Assembly (NCBI GenBank): GCA_027488115.1
Contig: JAIYCG010000001.1
Span: 124,001 to 188,000 of the forward strand
Length of the DNA: 64,000 nucleotides
Reading direction: 5' to 3'
From: Comamonadaceae bacterium
GTDB taxonomy: Bacteria > Pseudomonadota > Gammaproteobacteria > Burkholderiales > Burkholderiaceae_C
Position numbers and translations under genes: made by a program. Position 1 is the stretch's first letter. Each line of letters opens with the position of its first letter. Below, in pieces: positions 1,346 through 11,363 of the stretch. The notes beneath the pieces were generated by a model. That model worked only from the letters and a program-made list of their open reading frames with translations. It did not search any database and had not been told where the DNA came from.

Positions 1346-3745
1346 TTAGCTGGCTGGTTGAGCATCGTTCAATGCACACCAGATGGCTTGTGGCGTCATG
1401 GGCAGGTAGTCAATTTTGGCGCCCCGTGTAGATAAAGCATCGTTGACTGCACTTGCGATGGCAGCTGGGCTACCCAAATAACCTGCCTCACCAGACCCTT
1501 TTTGGCCAAACTCTGTGAGGGGTGATGGGGTGCAATGGTCAACAATGGTGATGGCAGGAACTTCTGCAGACGATGGCAGCAAATAATCCATGAAAGTGCC
1601 CGACAAAAGTTGACCCTCTGGAGAGAAAGCAAATTTTTCCATGAGCGCAGCACCCAAGCCATGCGCAATGCCACCATAAGTCATGCCATGCACGACATCT
1701 GGGCTGATCATGACCCCACAGTCGTGACCGCAGACGTATTTGCGCACGGTCACTTTGCAAGTGCCAGGATCGATGCTGACCAACACCACATGAGATTCGA
1801 AAGAATGACAGGGGTACATTTGAACTCGGCCATCTTCAGTGGGCAACATGCCGCCAGTAGGAACTTCCCAAACAAATTTTTCTTGAAGTCCAGGTTCCAT
1901 GCCTTCGGGCAGTTTGTGAAATTTGCGGTGCGCAATTTCTACCAAGGCATCCCAGGACAATTTTTTTTCAGGCTGGTTTTTGACTTGGACGTGACCGCCC
2001 TCGTAGTCCAATTGGTCAAGTGAAACGCTCAGGTTGTGCGCCGCAATCAGCAGCAGTTTGTGCTTAATTTTTTTGGCGGCACCAGCTGCTGCGCCTCCTA
2101 GCATGATCGCCATTCGGCTACCTACCGGACTGTTGGAGGGCAGTGCGTTCAATGAATCTGCGTGCAGGACGCGAATGCTGTCAGGTTCTCTGTGAAGCAC
2201 CTCGCCCACGACGGTGGAAACCATGGTTTCGTGGGCTTGGCCCGAACTGGAGGTGCCCATCAAGGCGGTCACTGACCCAGACAAATCAACACGAACCAAA
2301 CAAGAGTCCATCCAAGTGGTCGTTTCGTTTTTGGGGTTGAACAAGGGTTCGAACGAAGAATTGCCGCCTGACGGCTCTAGGCAAGTTGAAATGCCGATGC
2401 CGGCCAATTGACCCGATGCTCTTAAGGCATCACGCTCCTTGAGCAAATCACCATAAGCTGCCGTGTTGAGGGCTTTGGTCATGACGGTGTCGTAATCCCC
2501 GGAATCGTAGGAAGTTCCGCTGGGGATTAAATAGGGAAACTCGTCTTTGCCGATCATGTTGAGACGGCGCAGTGCAATGCGATCGATGTTGAGAAAACGG
2601 GCTACTTTGTCAATGCCTGTTTCAATGGCATAGTTGGTTGGCGCCTGCCCAAAACCTCGTACAGCTTCCTGGGGTGTTTTGTGGGTCATGACGGCCATTG
2701 CATCGTATGACACGCTCTTGATTCTGTAAGGACCAACAATGGCACCAACTGGCTTGCCCAACTGCAAAGGCGAACGGCCGGAATAGGCGCCGATGTCGTC
2801 TACCGCCTTCATGCGCATGCATTTGATTTCGCCATTGTTTTGAAAGCCCAAAGTAACATCAAAAATGCGGTCGGGGCCTTGCATGTCACCGCCGCGCATA
2901 TTCTCTAATCGATCTTCTATCAATCTGACGGGACGGCCTAATTTTTTGGCCAAATAACCCACCAGAACAGTGTGCTTGAGGCCTCGCTTGACGCCATAAC
3001 TGCCACCCACATCGACATCGAAGTGAACACGAACAGCATTGCCAGATAGGCGCAGGGCTTTGGCTACTTGATCAGGAAATTTGGGCATCTGAATTGAAGC
3101 CCAAACATCCAAAATTCCAGTTGAATCGTTCCATTGACAGGCGACTGCAAAAGTCTCAATGGGGACCGTCGCGTTTCGAGCCCAACTGACCCGGTAGCTG
3201 AGTTGATGGTCGCATTGGGAAAAATCTTGGTCCACCGGGCCCCACACAAAGTGGCGGTGAAAAATAACATTGCTGCCATGTGCAGGGTGTACCAAAGTGG
3301 CGTTGGGCAGCAAGGCTTCTTGCGGGTCGACCACAGCTGCGAGTTGCTCGTATTCAACAAATACCAATTCGGCGGCGTCTTCTGCAAGGGCTCTGCTGTC
3401 GGCAACAACGGCAGCCACCCATTCGCCAGCGTAACGGGTGACACCAAAGGCCATGGGATAGCGAGTGACCTGCGGCGCATCGACGCCGGGAAGCATGGCC
3501 TCTGTATTTTGCCGAAGCTCTTCGCCCGTTAAGACGGCATGAACTCCTGGCATCGCCAAAGCTTCACGGGTATCGATGGATTTGATTTTGGCACTTGCAT
3601 AAGGCGATGCCACCAAAGCCACATGCAGCATGCCTTGAACCTGAATGTCAGCGGCATAACGGCCTTGACCCACGACAAAGCGTTTGTGCTCAACAGCGCG
3701 GCGATGTTTGCCAATGAAGCGAAATGGGCTTTGGCTCATGATCAC
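1346..3745 (-). CDS. Xanthine dehydrogenase family protein, molybdopterin-binding large subunit
   Basis: 799 aa; FIGKHRRAVEHKRFVVGQGRYAADI N-terminus, VGGSYGVKRGLKH, EAVRGFGQAPTNYAIE and C-terminal GQKGSGEAGYLGSPAAIASAVNDAL (catalytic Glu region). Confidence 0.92.
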   Translation of the reverse strand: MIMSQSPFRFIGKHRRAVEHKRFVVGQGRYAADIQVQGMLHVALVASPYASAKIKSIDTREALAMPGVHAVLTGEELRQNTEAMLPGVDAPQVTRYPMAFGVTRYAGEWVAAVVADSRALAEDAAELVFVEYEQLAAVVDPQEALLPNATLVHPAHGSNVIFHRHFVWGPVDQDFSQCDHQLSYRVSWARNATVPIETFAVACQWNDSTGILDVWASIQMPKFPDQVAKALRLSGNAVRVHFDVDVGGSYGVKRGLKHTVLVGYLAKKLGRPVRLIEDRLENMRGGDMQGPDRIFDVTLGFQNNGEIKCMRMKAVDDIGAYSGRSPLQLGKPVGAIVGPYRIKSVSYDAMAVMTHKTPQEAVRGFGQAPTNYAIETGIDKVARFLNIDRIALRRLNMIGKDEFPYLIPSGTSYDSGDYDTVMTKALNTAAYGDLLKERDALRASGQLAGIGISTCLEPSGGNSSFEPLFNPKNETTTWMDSCLVRVDLSGSVTALMGTSSSGQAHETMVSTVVGEVLHREPDSIRVLHADSLNALPSNSPVGSRMAIMLGGAAAGAAKKIKHKLLLIAAHNLSVSLDQLDYEGGHVQVKNQPEKKLSWDALVEIAHRKFHKLPEGMEPGLQEKFVWEVPTGGMLPTEDGRVQMYPCHSFESHVVLVSIDPGTCKVTVRKYVCGHDCGVMISPDVVHGMTYGGIAHGLGAALMEKFAFSPEGQLLSGTFMDYLLPSSAEVPAITIVDHCTPSPLTEFGQKGSGEAGYLGSPAAIASAVNDALSTRGAKIDYLPMTPQAIWCALNDAQPAS

Positions 3746-4236
3746 TTGCTTTCAGGTTGGGTTGCGTGCATCACAGCGTCCACAATTTGTTGATAGCCTG
3801 TGCAACGGCAAATATTGCTGCTGATAGCATCTCTCACTTGGTCTTCTGTGGGGTGGGGATTGTCAGCGACCAGCGCATGGCATGCCATCAGCATGCCGGG
3901 CGTGCAGTAGCCACATTGAAGAGCGTGTTTTTCACAAAATGCATCCTGTATTTTTGTCATCACACCGCGTTCAGGCGCAAGTCCTTCCACGGTGGTTACA
4001 CGCATGTCATCGGCTTGAACTGCAAACATACAACACGAGCGCACCGGTTCGTCATTCAACATCACTGTACAGGCGCCACAAACGCCGTGCTCGCACCCAA
4101 CGTGAGTGCCAGTCAGTCCAAGGTCATCGCGAATGAAATCGACCAGGCTGGTACGCGGTTCTACAAGACGGCGCTGCAGGGTGCCATTGACTTCGATTTG
4201 AATCGATTTTTGAAACGAGTGGGTGGAGTCGGTCAT
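3742..4236 (-). CDS. (2Fe-2S)-binding small subunit of the molybdenum hydroxylase
   Basis: CEHGVCGACTVMLNDEPVRSC and CGYCTPGM / CRCTGYQQIV two-cluster motifs; internal Met (MTDSTHSFQKS) is the likely start of track ORF 3742..4299; overlaps both neighbours by 4 bp. Confidence 0.93.
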   Translation of the reverse strand: MTDSTHSFQKSIQIEVNGTLQRRLVEPRTSLVDFIRDDLGLTGTHVGCEHGVCGACTVMLNDEPVRSCCMFAVQADDMRVTTVEGLAPERGVMTKIQDAFCEKHALQCGYCTPGMLMACHALVADNPHPTEDQVRDAISSNICRCTGYQQIVDAVMHATQPESK

Positions 4237-5132
4237 GTGATTGAGGATGCATGGAGGGTGGCGCAAGCTTGTGCATAAGCAGTTTCTAGCGCTCGGCACA
4301 GAAGGACCTCGGCCAGATGTTTGCGATAAGCTGCTGTAGCATGCATATCACTTCCAGGCTGAGTTGATTGAACGGCCTCATGTGCGATGTGTCGCGCTTG
4401 ATCAGGGCTGATAGTTTGTCCAATCAAAGTCTTGGCTAGATCTGGAAATGCAAGTGGCGTTCCATCGACACCGCCTAGGCCAAAACTGATTCGATGAACG
4501 CGACCATCTTCATGGGTTTGAATTTGGCAGGCGGCAGAGGCCATGGCAAAGTCGCCCTTTCGAATGGCCGTCTCCTCAAAGGCGGTTCCGATGCGAGTCC
4601 CTTGCCAAACGGGCCAATCGATTTGAGTCAGGGCTTCTGTGTCTGAAACCGCGGTGAACATGGGACCTAGAAAAAACTCATTCGCCTTGAGTTGTCTTGA
4701 ACCATCCGATTTTGATTCAAGCTTGAGGCTTGCCTCCAGAACCAATGCGGCCAGTGCTAATTCTGCAGAAGGATCGGCATGGACCAGACTGCCGCCCACA
4801 GTGCCGCGGTTGCGTGTTTGCTCATGACCCACCCATTGCAAACCTTTTCCAACCAAAGGGAGAAGGGCGTGAAGTTGGGGGTGAAACTCTAGATCGCGTT
4901 GCCTGACACCGGCGCCCAATTTGACTTGACCTTCAGTCATTTCAATGTTCTTGAGTACGTCTAATCGGTTGATGTCAATCAACAGGCTTGGCCTGGCCAA
5001 TCGCATTGCCATCATGGGTACCAAGCTCTGGCCACCCGCAATCAATTTGGCATCGCCACCGTTCTGGCTCAGCATGTCTAATGCATGTGAAAGATTTTCA
5101 GCGCGAATGTAGTCAAAAGCAGCGGCTTTCAT
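4233..5132 (-). CDS. FAD-binding medium subunit of the molybdenum hydroxylase (CoxM/HcrB family)
   Basis: 299 aa; AGGQSLVPMMAMRLARPSLLIDI and RNRGTVGGSLVHADPSAEL FAD motifs. Confidence 0.93.
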   Translation of the reverse strand: MKAAAFDYIRAENLSHALDMLSQNGGDAKLIAGGQSLVPMMAMRLARPSLLIDINRLDVLKNIEMTEGQVKLGAGVRQRDLEFHPQLHALLPLVGKGLQWVGHEQTRNRGTVGGSLVHADPSAELALAALVLEASLKLESKSDGSRQLKANEFFLGPMFTAVSDTEALTQIDWPVWQGTRIGTAFEETAIRKGDFAMASAACQIQTHEDGRVHRISFGLGGVDGTPLAFPDLAKTLIGQTISPDQARHIAHEAVQSTQPGSDMHATAAYRKHLAEVLLCRALETAYAQACATLHASSIT

Positions 5133-6323: not shown

Positions 6324-7958
6324 ATGAGTCAATCAAAAACAGGTTATCCAGATCTTCACGACCATTTAGAGACCTTGAAACAACGTGGTTTGTTGCAAGT
6401 GATCGATCGTCCTATCGACAAAGATTCCGAACTACATCCCTTGGTGCGTTGGCAATTTGTGGGTGGCATGGATGAGGCAGAACGAAAAGCATTTTTGTTT
6501 ACCAACATCGTCAATGCCCAAGGCCGCAAATATGAGATACCGGTTGTCGTGGGTGCATTGGCAGCCAATCGTGAAATCTACAGTGTTGGCATGGGCTCCT
6601 CGGTGGAGGAAATACAGGCCCGTTGGGATCGCGCAATTTCAAACCCTATTCCTCCCAAGATGGTTGAGAATGCGGAATGCCAGGAGGTTGTGCATGAAGG
6701 TGCAGACTTGTTGGGTGATGGCAAGGGCCTAGACATGTTGCCTATTCCCATCTCAACACCAGGATTTGACAGCGCGCCAACCCTGACGGCTACTAACGTG
6801 ATCACTGTCGATCCTGAAACCGGCGTGCAAAACATGGGAACCTACCGGTGCGCTCTGAAAGCGTCTGACCGCATGGTTGTTCGCATGGCCACCCGTGTGG
6901 GCGGTGCAGGAGGCTATTTGCATTACCAAGCCTGGAAGAAAGCCGGCCACAAAACGATGCCTTGTGCCGTGGTTTTAGGTTGCCCCCCGTTTGTGGCATT
7001 CATGGGTCCTCAAAAATTGCCCATCGGCATGGATGAATTTGATGTGGCGGGTGGTTTGGCAGGCGTACCGATTCAAATTACACAAGCCCGAACGGTCAAC
7101 CTGCACGTTCCAGCTCAAGCTGAAATTGTGATTGAAGGCCAAATTGATTTGGACATGCTAGAGCCCGAAGCCCCCTTTGGTGAATCGCATGGCCATGTGG
7201 CATTGGAAGAGTTCAATCTGCCCATGAAAATCACGGCCATCACGCATCGCTTCAAGCCAGTCATTCCTTCTTACATCAGCCAGGTCGCACCCAGTGAATC
7301 CAGTGTGATCAAGCGAGTAGCCTACGAACCCCTGTTTTTGGCTTACCTGCGCACAACACTGGGAATTCGCGGCGTGAAAAAGGTTTCCTTGCACGAGCCT
7401 TTGACGGGCTTGCTGCGAGTCACCATTGTTACTTTTGAAAAGACAACCCCTAAAACAGAAATTTGGCGAGCGCTTTATGGCGCGGCCTTTTTTAAAGGGG
7501 ATTGCGGCAAGATCGTGATTGCCGTCAATGAGGACATCGACCCCGACAATGCAGATGCTCTGCTTTGGGCGATGGCTTACCGCATGAATCCTACGGCTGA
7601 TGTGAGAACACTTGACCACCGCGGTCAGGGTCACGGGCCGAAGCGGGAGAATGATGGTGAGGAAGACTCCACATTGCTGATGGACGCAACCATGAAAGGC
7701 GATATGCCGCCCTTGGCGCTGCCAACCAAAGTGTACATGGAGCGTTCGAAGCTCATTTGGGAGGAGCTGGGATTGCCCAAGCTACGCCCTCAAGCACCAT
7801 GGTTTGGCTACTCCTTAGGCGATTGGCTGCCACAGTGGGATGAGTCTGCTAAGCGCGCTGCCACGGGACTTTATTTAGAAAATGGCATGATCAGCCTCAA
7901 ACAACAGCGCAATGACGTGAAGGCCGAATCCAAATTCAGACCTGACGAAGACAATTGA
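6324..7958 (+). CDS. UbiD family (prFMN-dependent) decarboxylase
   Basis: Track ORF 6033..7958; likely start MSQSKTGYPDLHDHLETLKQRG at 6324. UbiD-type body DLDMLEPEAPFGESHGHV, IPSYISQVAPSESSVIKRVAYE. Confidence 0.9.
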   Translation: MSQSKTGYPDLHDHLETLKQRGLLQVIDRPIDKDSELHPLVRWQFVGGMDEAERKAFLFTNIVNAQGRKYEIPVVVGALAANREIYSVGMGSSVEEIQARWDRAISNPIPPKMVENAECQEVVHEGADLLGDGKGLDMLPIPISTPGFDSAPTLTATNVITVDPETGVQNMGTYRCALKASDRMVVRMATRVGGAGGYLHYQAWKKAGHKTMPCAVVLGCPPFVAFMGPQKLPIGMDEFDVAGGLAGVPIQITQARTVNLHVPAQAEIVIEGQIDLDMLEPEAPFGESHGHVALEEFNLPMKITAITHRFKPVIPSYISQVAPSESSVIKRVAYEPLFLAYLRTTLGIRGVKKVSLHEPLTGLLRVTIVTFEKTTPKTEIWRALYGAAFFKGDCGKIVIAVNEDIDPDNADALLWAMAYRMNPTADVRTLDHRGQGHGPKRENDGEEDSTLLMDATMKGDMPPLALPTKVYMERSKLIWEELGLPKLRPQAPWFGYSLGDWLPQWDESAKRAATGLYLENGMISLKQQRNDVKAESKFRPDEDN

Positions 7959-7988: not shown

Positions 7989-8588
7989 ATGAGTCACTCA
8001 AGTACTTCTAAAACCCCACGGCGTTTGATTGTGGGCATCAGTGGTGCATCTGGCATTGTCTACGGCGTTCGCATTCTTCAAGTTTTGCAGCATTCAGACA
8101 TCGAAACGCATTTGGTCATGAGCGATTCAGCGCGCATGACACTGGCCACAGAGCTGGACATGAACGTGAAAGAAGTCGAAGCACTGGCCACCGAGGTGCA
8201 CAACGCTAAAAATATTGGCGCAACCATTTCATCAGGATCTTTCAAAACCATGGGCATGGTGGTTGCACCTTGTTCCATCAAATCTTTGTCAGAAATTGCT
8301 TATGGCATGACCGGTGGCTTACTTTCCAGAGCGGCCGACGTGGTGTTGAAAGAGCGCAGAAGGTTGGTCCTCATGATTCGCGAAACGCCGCTTCACAGTG
8401 GGCATCTTCGGACCATGTTGCAAGCCTCTGAAAACGGCGCTATCTTGATGCCCCCAGTCCCTGCTTTGTATGCGCGTCCTCAATCCATCGACGACATGGT
8501 GAACCATACGGTAGGCCGTTGTCTTGACTTATTTGACATCGAAACAGATTTGGTCAAACGCTGGGCCGGTATGGGGCAAGACAAGTAA
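7989..8588 (+). CDS. UbiX family flavin prenyltransferase
   Basis: 199 aa; RLIVGISGASGIVYGVRILQVL, APCSIKSLSEIAYG, ADVVLKERRRLVLMIRETPLHSGHLRTM. Confidence 0.93.
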   Translation: MSHSSTSKTPRRLIVGISGASGIVYGVRILQVLQHSDIETHLVMSDSARMTLATELDMNVKEVEALATEVHNAKNIGATISSGSFKTMGMVVAPCSIKSLSEIAYGMTGGLLSRAADVVLKERRRLVLMIRETPLHSGHLRTMLQASENGAILMPPVPALYARPQSIDDMVNHTVGRCLDLFDIETDLVKRWAGMGQDK

Positions 8589-8622
8589 ATTCATAGATAA
8601 CAATCAGGGCCATCCGTTGAAC

Positions 8623-8907
8623 ATGCAAACCTTATTTGTTTATTACAAACTACCGATTGCTGATCATGCTCAGTGGCGCCCGCGAGTTGAAGCTTTTCAA
8701 AATGAACTGAAGCAAAAGTGGTCGGGCCTCAGTGCAGTGTTAATGCAAAGACCGGAAGCCACGCCAGATGGCATTGAAACCTGGATGGAAATCTACAGTC
8801 ACCACCAAGGCGTCACCCAAGAGATGATGGACAGCATTGCTGCTGAAGCCTTAGCTCATGGCTTGCCGCCAAAGAGGATGTCTGAGTTTTTTATTCCCTT
8901 GAGATAA
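8623..8907 (+). CDS. DUF4936-like small protein
   Basis: About 94 aa starting MQTLFVYYKLPIADHAQWRPRVEAFQNELKQKW (internal start in track ORF 8524..8907); resembles the small DUF4936 family. Confidence 0.6.
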   Translation: MQTLFVYYKLPIADHAQWRPRVEAFQNELKQKWSGLSAVLMQRPEATPDGIETWMEIYSHHQGVTQEMMDSIAAEALAHGLPPKRMSEFFIPLR

Positions 8908-8946: not shown

Positions 8947-10983
8947 ATGACAGAACCTACGCATTCAGGGCAGCCCGCTGACAGCAGCCCTGCCGAAAAT
9001 CAAACCCATCCAAACAGTCTAGCGCTACCTCAACTTGCCCGTCGGGGATTTTTGAGTGGCGTTCTTGCCTCAGGGGCTGTTGCTGCCGGTACGGCGGCAT
9101 CGCTGGTTTCCAACCCTGTGCAAGCAGCAGGTCCTGCCAAGCCCTCTGTTTTACCGCCCTCGGCCAAAGGGGCCTTGGCAGAAACCGGGGTGCCACCCGA
9201 TCTGGGTCATGCCCCAGGTGCCGGCATGCCTGGCTCAGACTTCATGGTCGATGTGATCAAGTCACTGGACATTAAATACTTACCATCCAACTGCGCGTCG
9301 AGTTTCCGAGCCTTGCATGAATCGCTGATTGATTATGGTGGCAACACCAAGCCTGAGTTCCTAACCTGCATGCACGAGGAGTCGGCAGTAGCCATGGGCC
9401 ATGGATATTTCAAAGCCTGTGGCAAGCCCCTCCTGACACTTTGTCACGGAACAGTCGGATTGCAACATGCCTCCATGGCCATCTACAACGCTTGGTGTGA
9501 TCGCGTACCCGTGATTGTGGTGGGTGGCAATGACCTTGATGCGGCCTATCGGCCACCTGGTGTTCCCACCTTCCATGCAGCGCAAGACATCAATGCCATG
9601 GTCCGCGATTACACCAAGTGGGACGATACCCCCGTGTCTTTGCAACACTTCTCGCAGTCATTCGTTCGCGCCTACAAAATTGCCATGACGCCACCCTACG
9701 GTCCCGTGGCTATCTCGCTTGATGCGGCTTTGCAAATGGCGCCCGTTCATTTGCACGAAGGCAAGATGCCTTACATCCCTAAGTACATTCCCACATCGCC
9801 ACCACAAGGTGACTCGGGGGCTGTTAAAGAAGCTGCAAAAATGTTGGTTCAAGCCAACAATCCCGTGATCGTGGTCGACCGAGCCGCCAGAACCCCTGAA
9901 GGTGTTGCCCTTTTGGTTCAATTGGCAGAGTTGCTGCAGGCCAAGGTGATTGATCAGGGAAGTCGCATGAACTTTCCTAAAACGCATTATTTAAGTGCAC
10001 CTGCTACAGCCATTGCCAATGCAGACGTAATCATTGGCATGGAACTCTCTGATTTTTGGGCAACCGTCAATGCCTACACCGACAATAATTCAAACGATGG
10101 CCACGGTACCAATGCCTCTCGCATCAAGCCACAAACCAAGCTGATCAGCATCAACTCGGTGGATCTCAACACAAAATCAAACTACCAAGACTTCCAGCGC
10201 TTTCAAGTTGTGGATGTGCAAATGGCAGCCGATGCCCAAACCACTTTGCCATCATTGATTGAGGCCGTTCGTTCTGCTTTGCCCAACGACAAAAAAGATG
10301 CCATTGCAAAACGTGGTGAACTGCAACGCAAAACTTACGAAGAAGACCGCATTCGAACACGCACGGCTGCAGCCTTGGGTTGGAATGAAAGTCCCATCAG
10401 CACAGCGCGTTTGGTCATGGAAACGTTTGCTGCTGTCAAGAATGAAGATTGGGCCTTGGTCGCTTCGGAAGGCAATGTGAGCAATTGGCCCGTGCGTTTG
10501 TGGCCGATGGAAAAACATCATCAGTGGTTGGGCAGATCAGGTGGCTACGGCGTGGGCTATGGTGCGCCTGCCTCGGTTGGGGCTGCATTGGCCAATCGCG
10601 ATTTAGGTCGTTTTTCTGTCAGCATTCAATCAGATGGCGACTTGATGTTTGCCCCAGGCGTGCTGTGGACTGCTGCCAAACACAAAATTCCATTGCTGTC
10701 AGTGATGCACAACAACCGCGGGTACCACCAGGAAGTGATGCACATTCAACGCTTGGCCAATTTCCGCAATCGCAAAGTGAACCTGGACGGTGACATGGGC
10801 CCTGTAGGAACCAGCATCGAAAATCCTGACATTCAGTACCACGAGTTGGCCAAATCGATGGGCTGGTGGGCGAAAGGCCCAATCAAAGATCCTGCCCAAT
10901 TGGCTTCGGCTTTGAAGGAAGCAGTTGCAGTGGTGAAGTCTGGCCATCCTGCGTTGCTCAACGTATGGACTCAACCTCGTTGA
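8947..10983 (+). CDS. Thiamine pyrophosphate-dependent enzyme with predicted Tat signal peptide
   Basis: TPP-enzyme fold: MHEESAVAMGHGYF (catalytic Glu), SDGDLMFAPGVLWTAAKHKIPLLSVMHNNRGYH (TPP/Mg motif region); N-terminus LARRGFLSGVLASGAVAAGTAASLVSNPVQAAG is a Tat-like signal; ATG at 8947 follows a gaggag RBS-like stretch. Confidence 0.88.
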   Translation: MTEPTHSGQPADSSPAENQTHPNSLALPQLARRGFLSGVLASGAVAAGTAASLVSNPVQAAGPAKPSVLPPSAKGALAETGVPPDLGHAPGAGMPGSDFMVDVIKSLDIKYLPSNCASSFRALHESLIDYGGNTKPEFLTCMHEESAVAMGHGYFKACGKPLLTLCHGTVGLQHASMAIYNAWCDRVPVIVVGGNDLDAAYRPPGVPTFHAAQDINAMVRDYTKWDDTPVSLQHFSQSFVRAYKIAMTPPYGPVAISLDAALQMAPVHLHEGKMPYIPKYIPTSPPQGDSGAVKEAAKMLVQANNPVIVVDRAARTPEGVALLVQLAELLQAKVIDQGSRMNFPKTHYLSAPATAIANADVIIGMELSDFWATVNAYTDNNSNDGHGTNASRIKPQTKLISINSVDLNTKSNYQDFQRFQVVDVQMAADAQTTLPSLIEAVRSALPNDKKDAIAKRGELQRKTYEEDRIRTRTAAALGWNESPISTARLVMETFAAVKNEDWALVASEGNVSNWPVRLWPMEKHHQWLGRSGGYGVGYGAPASVGAALANRDLGRFSVSIQSDGDLMFAPGVLWTAAKHKIPLLSVMHNNRGYHQEVMHIQRLANFRNRKVNLDGDMGPVGTSIENPDIQYHELAKSMGWWAKGPIKDPAQLASALKEAVAVVKSGHPALLNVWTQPR

Positions 10984-10997
10984 AGAAGGAGACAACC

Positions 10998-11363
10998 ATG
11001 AAAAATAATTCAATCAATTCTTACTTCAACAAACTTGTCTTGATAGCGATCATGGCCTTGATATCTTCACATGCAATGGCTCAAGCCCCTCAGGCTTCGG
11101 CTGACAAAGGCAAGCAAGCCTATGTCAAAAATGGTTGCTGGGGATGTCATGGTTTTGTTGGACAGGGCGGCATTGCCGGACCCAAGTTAGCGCCAGAGAC
11201 CAAGCCAATTGAGTATTTCCAAGCTTTTGTCCGCTATACCAATGGCCCCATGCCGCCCTACAGTGAAAAGATTCTTTCAAATCAAGACTTGACCGACATT
11301 CATGCTTACCTTAAGTCAATTCCCAAGGGCCCTGACTACAAAACATTGCCTTTGTTAAATTGA
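10998..11363 (+). CDS. Secreted monoheme c-type cytochrome
   Basis: N-terminal signal peptide (LVLIAIMALISSHAMAQA), CWGCH heme motif and candidate Met ligand MPPYS; ATG at 10998 with aaggaga RBS. Confidence 0.9.
   Translation: MKNNSINSYFNKLVLIAIMALISSHAMAQAPQASADKGKQAYVKNGCWGCHGFVGQGGIAGPKLAPETKPIEYFQAFVRYTNGPMPPYSEKILSNQDLTDIHAYLKSIPKGPDYKTLPLLN

Follow-up and report, generated by a model that had tools for sequence, protein, structure and literature searches.

ThDP enzymes are generally taken to be cytoplasmic, most enzymes of the DC superfamily are non-oxidative, and three outlets are known for the electrons of the ThDP enamine, namely lipoamide, flavin and iron-sulfur clusters. The closest solved relative of the enzyme analyzed in this work is benzoylformate decarboxylase (MdlC; PDB 1bfd, 4q9d), which has the same three-domain ThDP fold and whose Glu47 and His70 have equivalents in our enzyme; however, MdlC is cytosolic and non-oxidative, it has no cytochrome partner, and its identity with our enzyme is only about 20%. 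The gene under study lies in a stretch of 64,000 nucleotides, hereafter the window (positions 124,001 to 188,000 of contig JAIYCG010000001.1, Comamonadaceae bacterium assembly GCA_027488115.1), and the comparison of this locus with its relatives gives good support to the idea that it encodes an enzyme bearing a Tat signal and paired with a secreted cytochrome c.

The ThDP enzyme and its N-terminal signal

The open reading frame extends from 8947 to 10983 on the forward strand (ATG at 8947, stop codon ending at 10983, 678 aa); we judge it real, and a GAGGAG Shine-Dalgarno sequence is located just 5' of the ATG. The mature enzyme (9127–10983, forward strand), consisting of a linker and of the N, central and C ThDP domains (residues 95–195, 293–436 and 509–673, all over the Pfam cut-offs), was assigned to the decarboxylase superfamily on the basis of Pfam, an AlphaFold model, a fold search and the aligned residues E144 and H167; the criteria of the superfamily are met by the three domains together with the conserved E144, D563-G564 and N589-N590. 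In the AlphaFold2 model, built from 53 sequences (mean pLDDT 85, pTM 0.83), the enzyme part is confident and the signal is disordered (pLDDT <50 at residues 1–32 and 36–59).

According to sequence profiles, the closest solved structures are benzoylformate decarboxylases (profile E ~4e-44), in which Glu47 and His70 correspond by alignment to E144 and H167. H167 is invariant in 53 sequences; the His281 of these structures has no clear counterpart in the window enzyme, the alignment being weak there. The fold search returned the whole ThDP superfamily at similar scores, barely separating its members, and benzaldehyde lyase and glyoxylate carboligase were among the best fold and sequence matches. 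When the curated NCBIfam cut-offs for named equivalogs were applied, all the listed families remained below cut-off, including benzoylformate decarboxylase (NF005485, 153.6 bits vs. 493), acetolactate synthase and the other named ThDP equivalogs, the best of which was NF006203 (212.8 bits vs. 456). Neither benzoylformate decarboxylase nor benzaldehyde lyase contains a flavin; since these best profile relatives lack this cofactor, it is not expected, by analogy, in the window enzyme, where its presence or absence is inferred only. The idea of a FAD or quinone site, raised by the original prediction, found no indication in anything that we analyzed.

The same prediction, made from the sequence alone, had claimed that the TPP (ThDP) enzyme at 8947–10983 bears a Tat signal and that a linker of about 40 residues precedes the catalytic domain. 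The first claim held, on the evidence of TIGR01409 and of the family-wide conservation of the RR pair, and the second held approximately, as about 34 residues were counted between VQA/A and GSDFMVDV. The signal peptide (residues 1–60; 8947–9126, forward strand) contains R32-R33-G-F-L, with the RR codons at 9040–9045, followed by an uncharged stretch of small residues and by VQA/A at residues 58–61, where cleavage is predicted, by inspection, after residue 60. With 20.0 bits against a cut-off of 16.7, the N-terminal 80 aa pass the NCBI Tat model TIGR01409; of the eight other family members tested, all pass but L014 (15.3). The distant relative L006 gave no TIGR01409 match, and the Pfam TAT_signal model did not match the window sequence.

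Within the family, 87 of the 90 ThDP genes with a locatable N-terminal region carry RRx[FLM][LMI]; the list of 90 counts one gene fetched twice (L002/L012). One of these 87 genes has KR; the fourth position is F in 85, the following residue is L, M or I in all 87, and AxA occurs 15–45 residues past RR in 81. Two of the three genes lacking the motif (L006 and the second gene of L015) are distant cytosolic-type paralogues with 31% identity. The third, L083, was considered as a signal-less exception and rejected, as its signal, LDRRRFITGAAVAGAA, is present in another frame, before a frameshift at a run of C. In this MAG, the ThDP gene is interrupted between signal and enzyme (L083:929-1127), and the break may be a sequencing error or a true frameshift.

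In 72 of 86 loci, a Shine-Dalgarno-like motif accompanies a start codon lying 5' of RR, vs. a 7% background inside genes, and only 10 loci have any start of this kind in the interval from RR to the catalytic domain. The possibility of a downstream, unexported start was thus rejected, as none that carries a ribosome site is conserved there. Two of the three conditions under which the Tat claim would have been refuted, i.e., loss of RR in the orthologues and a conserved downstream start without the signal, were checked, and neither was fulfilled. The genome of the window codes for TatC. As the Tat pattern is kept across the family, a chance RR is excluded, and the view that the window enzyme is a Tat export substrate is well supported, even though export itself is inferred from the sequence.

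The adjacent cytochrome c and the surrounding genes

A gene that the original prediction did not mention begins 14 nt downstream of the ThDP gene (10998–11363, forward strand) and codes for a small secreted class I cytochrome c of 121 aa, identified by Pfam, conserved position and co-occurrence; it has a signal peptide (assigned by inspection), CWGCH and an MPPY Met ligand. The criteria for a class I c-type cytochrome are met, as Pfam is over cut-off and the CxxCH and MP motifs are kept in the consensus of 71 sequences. Considering the 85 loci in which an exported ThDP gene has enough flanking sequence, a same-strand cytochrome c gene lies directly 3' in 74 (71 detected by script, plus L039, L066 and L073 by BLAST), with a median gap of 13 nt that is ≤50 nt in 68 of 71. 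The cytochrome is convergent and nearby in four Limnohabitans paralogues (at no more than 55 nt in three of them and at 583 nt in the fourth), one locus (L007, genome G012) has a copy about 5 kb from the ThDP gene, and no adjacent cytochrome was found at six Acidobacteriota loci. At three of these six loci (L075:11932-13389, L077 and L086), the position directly 3' of the exported ThDP gene is occupied by an Abhydrolase_10-family gene instead of the cytochrome.

Three consecutive ThDP–cytochrome pairs occur in an alphaproteobacterial MAG (L060:7160-14726). Two of these pairs are sisters (68% identical), and one is divergent (46–48%).

The association also holds at the level of whole genomes. 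The genome of the window encodes only two cytochromes similar at E<1e-5, each beside one exported ThDP gene. The exported enzyme was found in five of 60 related genomes and the cytochrome (E<1e-10) in exactly those five; the chance of an identical five-genome pattern is 1 in C(60,5), i.e., ~2e-7, but the five share one genus and are not independent. The copy numbers of enzyme and cytochrome agree in those genomes, including a pair of G003 split by a contig end. An extra unpaired cytochrome in G003 was considered and rejected, as the contig begins within a ThDP gene, of which only the C-terminus is present. Moreover, the distances among the enzymes follow those among the cytochromes (r = 0.76, a value that 1000 permutations never reached), with shared species history left uncorrected. 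On the whole, the pairing of the exported ThDP enzyme with its own secreted cytochrome c is well supported, and it strengthens the original idea of a periplasmic 2-oxo acid enzyme, whose location and activity are inferred.

Upstream of the ThDP gene, on the same strand, there are genes for a UbiD-family decarboxylase (6324–7958; Pfam PF01977), which likely belongs to the same transcription unit, for a UbiX-family flavin prenyltransferase (7989–8588; Pfam, NCBIfam) and, directly upstream, for a DUF4936 protein (8614–8907; Pfam PF16290). This last gene, between those for UbiX and the ThDP enzyme, is conserved in Limnohabitans-type loci. A LysR regulator is also encoded upstream, and, divergently, a PcaD-like hydrolase and a CO-dehydrogenase-type molybdenum hydroxylase (1346–5132, reverse strand). 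Both UbiD and UbiX are next to the ThDP gene in no loci but those of Limnohabitans type, a few others having just UbiD, and we rejected them as a general functional partner, the set being missing from most loci; we consider them a local addition, outside the conserved ThDP–cytochrome unit. Since the UbiD/CoxL set is absent from most loci, it cannot define the function of the ThDP enzyme. Nevertheless, UbiD and a CoxL-type enzyme recur by the ThDP–cytochrome pair in distant loci (L070, L081, L085, L027 and L031), and this recurrence makes plausible a pathway for aromatic or heteroaromatic acids shared with these two enzymes. The gene neighbours did not single out a specific substrate: Bug/Tct binding proteins, molybdenum hydroxylases, UbiD, MFS carriers and porins come up repeatedly, but no one of them is found at every locus.

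Distribution of the family and its unexported sisters

The relatives (about 90) come from a scan of GTDB genomes plus three whole-genome searches. The exported enzymes span Beta- and Alphaproteobacteria and Acidobacteriota, and the family is patchy: a match at E<1e-60 was found in three of 398 genomes drawn across the phylum, two of the three being to unexported sisters. The window's genome, which its relatives place in Limnohabitans, has a second exported copy (L008, 54% identity). Around this second exported ThDP gene (L103; own genome, C48:57000-72500) there are genes for a cytochrome c and a Tat-exported molybdenum hydroxylase, as well as for an MFS carrier, solute-binding proteins, two cupins and an EutA-like protein; an EutA gene is likewise found near the ThDP gene of a Phyllobacterium relative (L117).

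In a tree of 42 rows, constructed under a mixture model, one branch (100/100) separates 33 exported enzymes from nine unexported relatives. The exported side includes enzymes of cultured strains, i.e., Caballeronia zhejiangensis (48% identical, RRTFLKE, the neighbouring gene being annotated as a dihaem cytochrome) and Novosphingobium sp. KACC 22771 (43%, RRNFLTT, cytochrome 2 nt downstream); Limnohabitans sp. 15K is another cultured carrier. The annotation of the Caballeronia locus says no more than 'thiamine pyrophosphate-binding protein' beside 'c-type cytochrome'.

The unexported enzymes (among them Salipiger abyssi WP_076694631.1, Phyllobacterium zundukense WP_262291239.1 and L006) are the sister group of the same enzyme, 31–37% identical, and differ from the exported ones in having neither Tat signal nor cytochrome; the absence of the latter was checked in five genome stretches, over about 6 kb around the gene. 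Several of their genes are beside or near an aldehyde dehydrogenase gene (those of L100, L101 and L102, that of Salipiger abyssi, which has two such neighbours, and that of Sinorhizobium terangae, where the call rests on sequence resemblance only), and the Salipiger abyssi locus also has an alpha-hydroxy acid oxidase gene. These neighbours suggest 2-oxo-acid chemistry together with oxidation at the aldehyde level. The simplest reading, inferred from the gene neighbours, is that the ThDP step goes with an aldehyde-level oxidation, for which the cytosolic branch would use an NAD-dependent aldehyde dehydrogenase and the exported branch cytochrome c.

Possible function, rival explanations and known systems

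The sequences support the Tat signal, the ThDP fold with its catalytic residues, the near-exclusive pairing with the cytochrome and the single branch between exported and unexported enzymes. The explanation that we favour, although it is only about as likely as not, is that the enzyme acts in the periplasm as a ThDP-dependent dehydrogenase of 2-oxo acids (or aldehydes) and hands the electrons over to its own cytochrome c; its substrate, its oxidative step and a direct electron transfer from ThDP to haem are inferred only, as are activity and location. According to this model, the enzyme would fold and load ThDP/Mg in the cytosol and then be carried by Tat across the inner membrane; ThDP would take up a 2-oxo acid (or an aldehyde), with loss of CO2 in the former case, the cytochrome c would oxidize the enamine in two one-electron steps, the acyl-ThDP would be hydrolysed to a carboxylic acid, and the electrons would reach a terminal oxidase without NAD, CoA or flavin. 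The 2-oxoacid:ferredoxin oxidoreductases show that the one-electron oxidation of ThDP intermediates is possible in principle; no ThDP enzyme is known to reduce haem directly. A bolder reading, against which we lean slightly, is that of a new class of respiratory dehydrogenase in which a periplasmic ThDP enamine reduces a c-type cytochrome directly, without flavin, iron-sulfur cluster, lipoamide or CoA. Besides the lack of a known haem-reducing ThDP enzyme and the non-oxidative nature of most of the superfamily, two findings speak against the dehydrogenase reading: at the six Acidobacteriota loci that lack a neighbouring cytochrome, the enzyme would need one encoded elsewhere, or none, and the Tat-exported molybdenum hydroxylases near the gene in L085, L103 and L105 could be the true reductants of the cytochrome.

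Because of these hydroxylases, the main rival explanation stays open as a possibility. It assumes a periplasmic non-oxidative 2-oxo acid decarboxylase releasing an aldehyde, with a separate periplasmic aldehyde oxidase, e.g., a Tat-exported molybdenum enzyme of the isoquinoline-oxidoreductase type, reducing the cytochrome c. In its favour, the nearest solved relatives are non-oxidative decarboxylases and the cytosolic sisters often adjoin an aldehyde dehydrogenase; however, in most loci the cytochrome is the sole constant partner, no exported aldehyde oxidase is adjacent, and the cytochrome tracks the ThDP gene rather than an oxidase. A periplasmic acyloin lyase or ligase of the benzaldehyde-lyase or glyoxylate-carboligase type, acting on C-C bonds of exported intermediates with the cytochrome serving a coupled step, appears unlikely: these two enzymes do rank among the best matches, but fold scores hardly discriminate within the superfamily, and the invariant His at the His70 position and the alpha-hydroxy acid oxidase by an unexported sister point to decarboxylation. 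Lastly, that the N-terminus is a membrane tether or a chance RR and the enzyme works in the cytosol with UbiD and UbiX, which lack export signals in the same putative operon, is very improbable despite the failed TAT_signal match, given that the Tat pattern is kept in signals otherwise very different in sequence, TIGR01409 is over cut-off, the link to a secreted cytochrome is near-exclusive and most loci have no UbiD/UbiX.

Returning to the dehydrogenase reading, a widespread exported family genetically bound to cytochrome c points to a fourth drain for enamine electrons and suggests that bacteria of soil and fresh water oxidize 2-oxo acids (or aldehydes) in the periplasm; the proposal is directly testable, as cultured carriers exist and cytochrome reduction can be read by simple spectroscopy. 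The full-text literature searched, on the export of such enzymes and on one-electron enamine chemistry, describes neither an exported ThDP enzyme nor a ThDP–cytochrome c couple; as it includes few subscription journals, this absence is suggestive only. To our knowledge, this would be the first exported ThDP enzyme and, if the bolder reading were true, the first case of ThDP-to-haem transfer.

Pyruvate oxidase (PoxB) and the 2-oxoacid:ferredoxin oxidoreductases are likewise ThDP enzymes in which the enamine is oxidized and the electrons pass to a respiratory or redox carrier; unlike the proposed system, they are cytosolic and use FAD/quinone, or Fe-S clusters with CoA, and no secreted cytochrome c. 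Conversely, sulfite dehydrogenase SorAB and gluconate 2-dehydrogenase share the plan of a Tat-exported cofactor enzyme with a dedicated cytochrome c, but they rely on molybdopterin or FAD instead of ThDP and have an unrelated fold. Each part of the system described here, i.e., the ThDP fold, the Tat signal and the cytochrome c, is of a known kind, and it is their combination that appears to be new.
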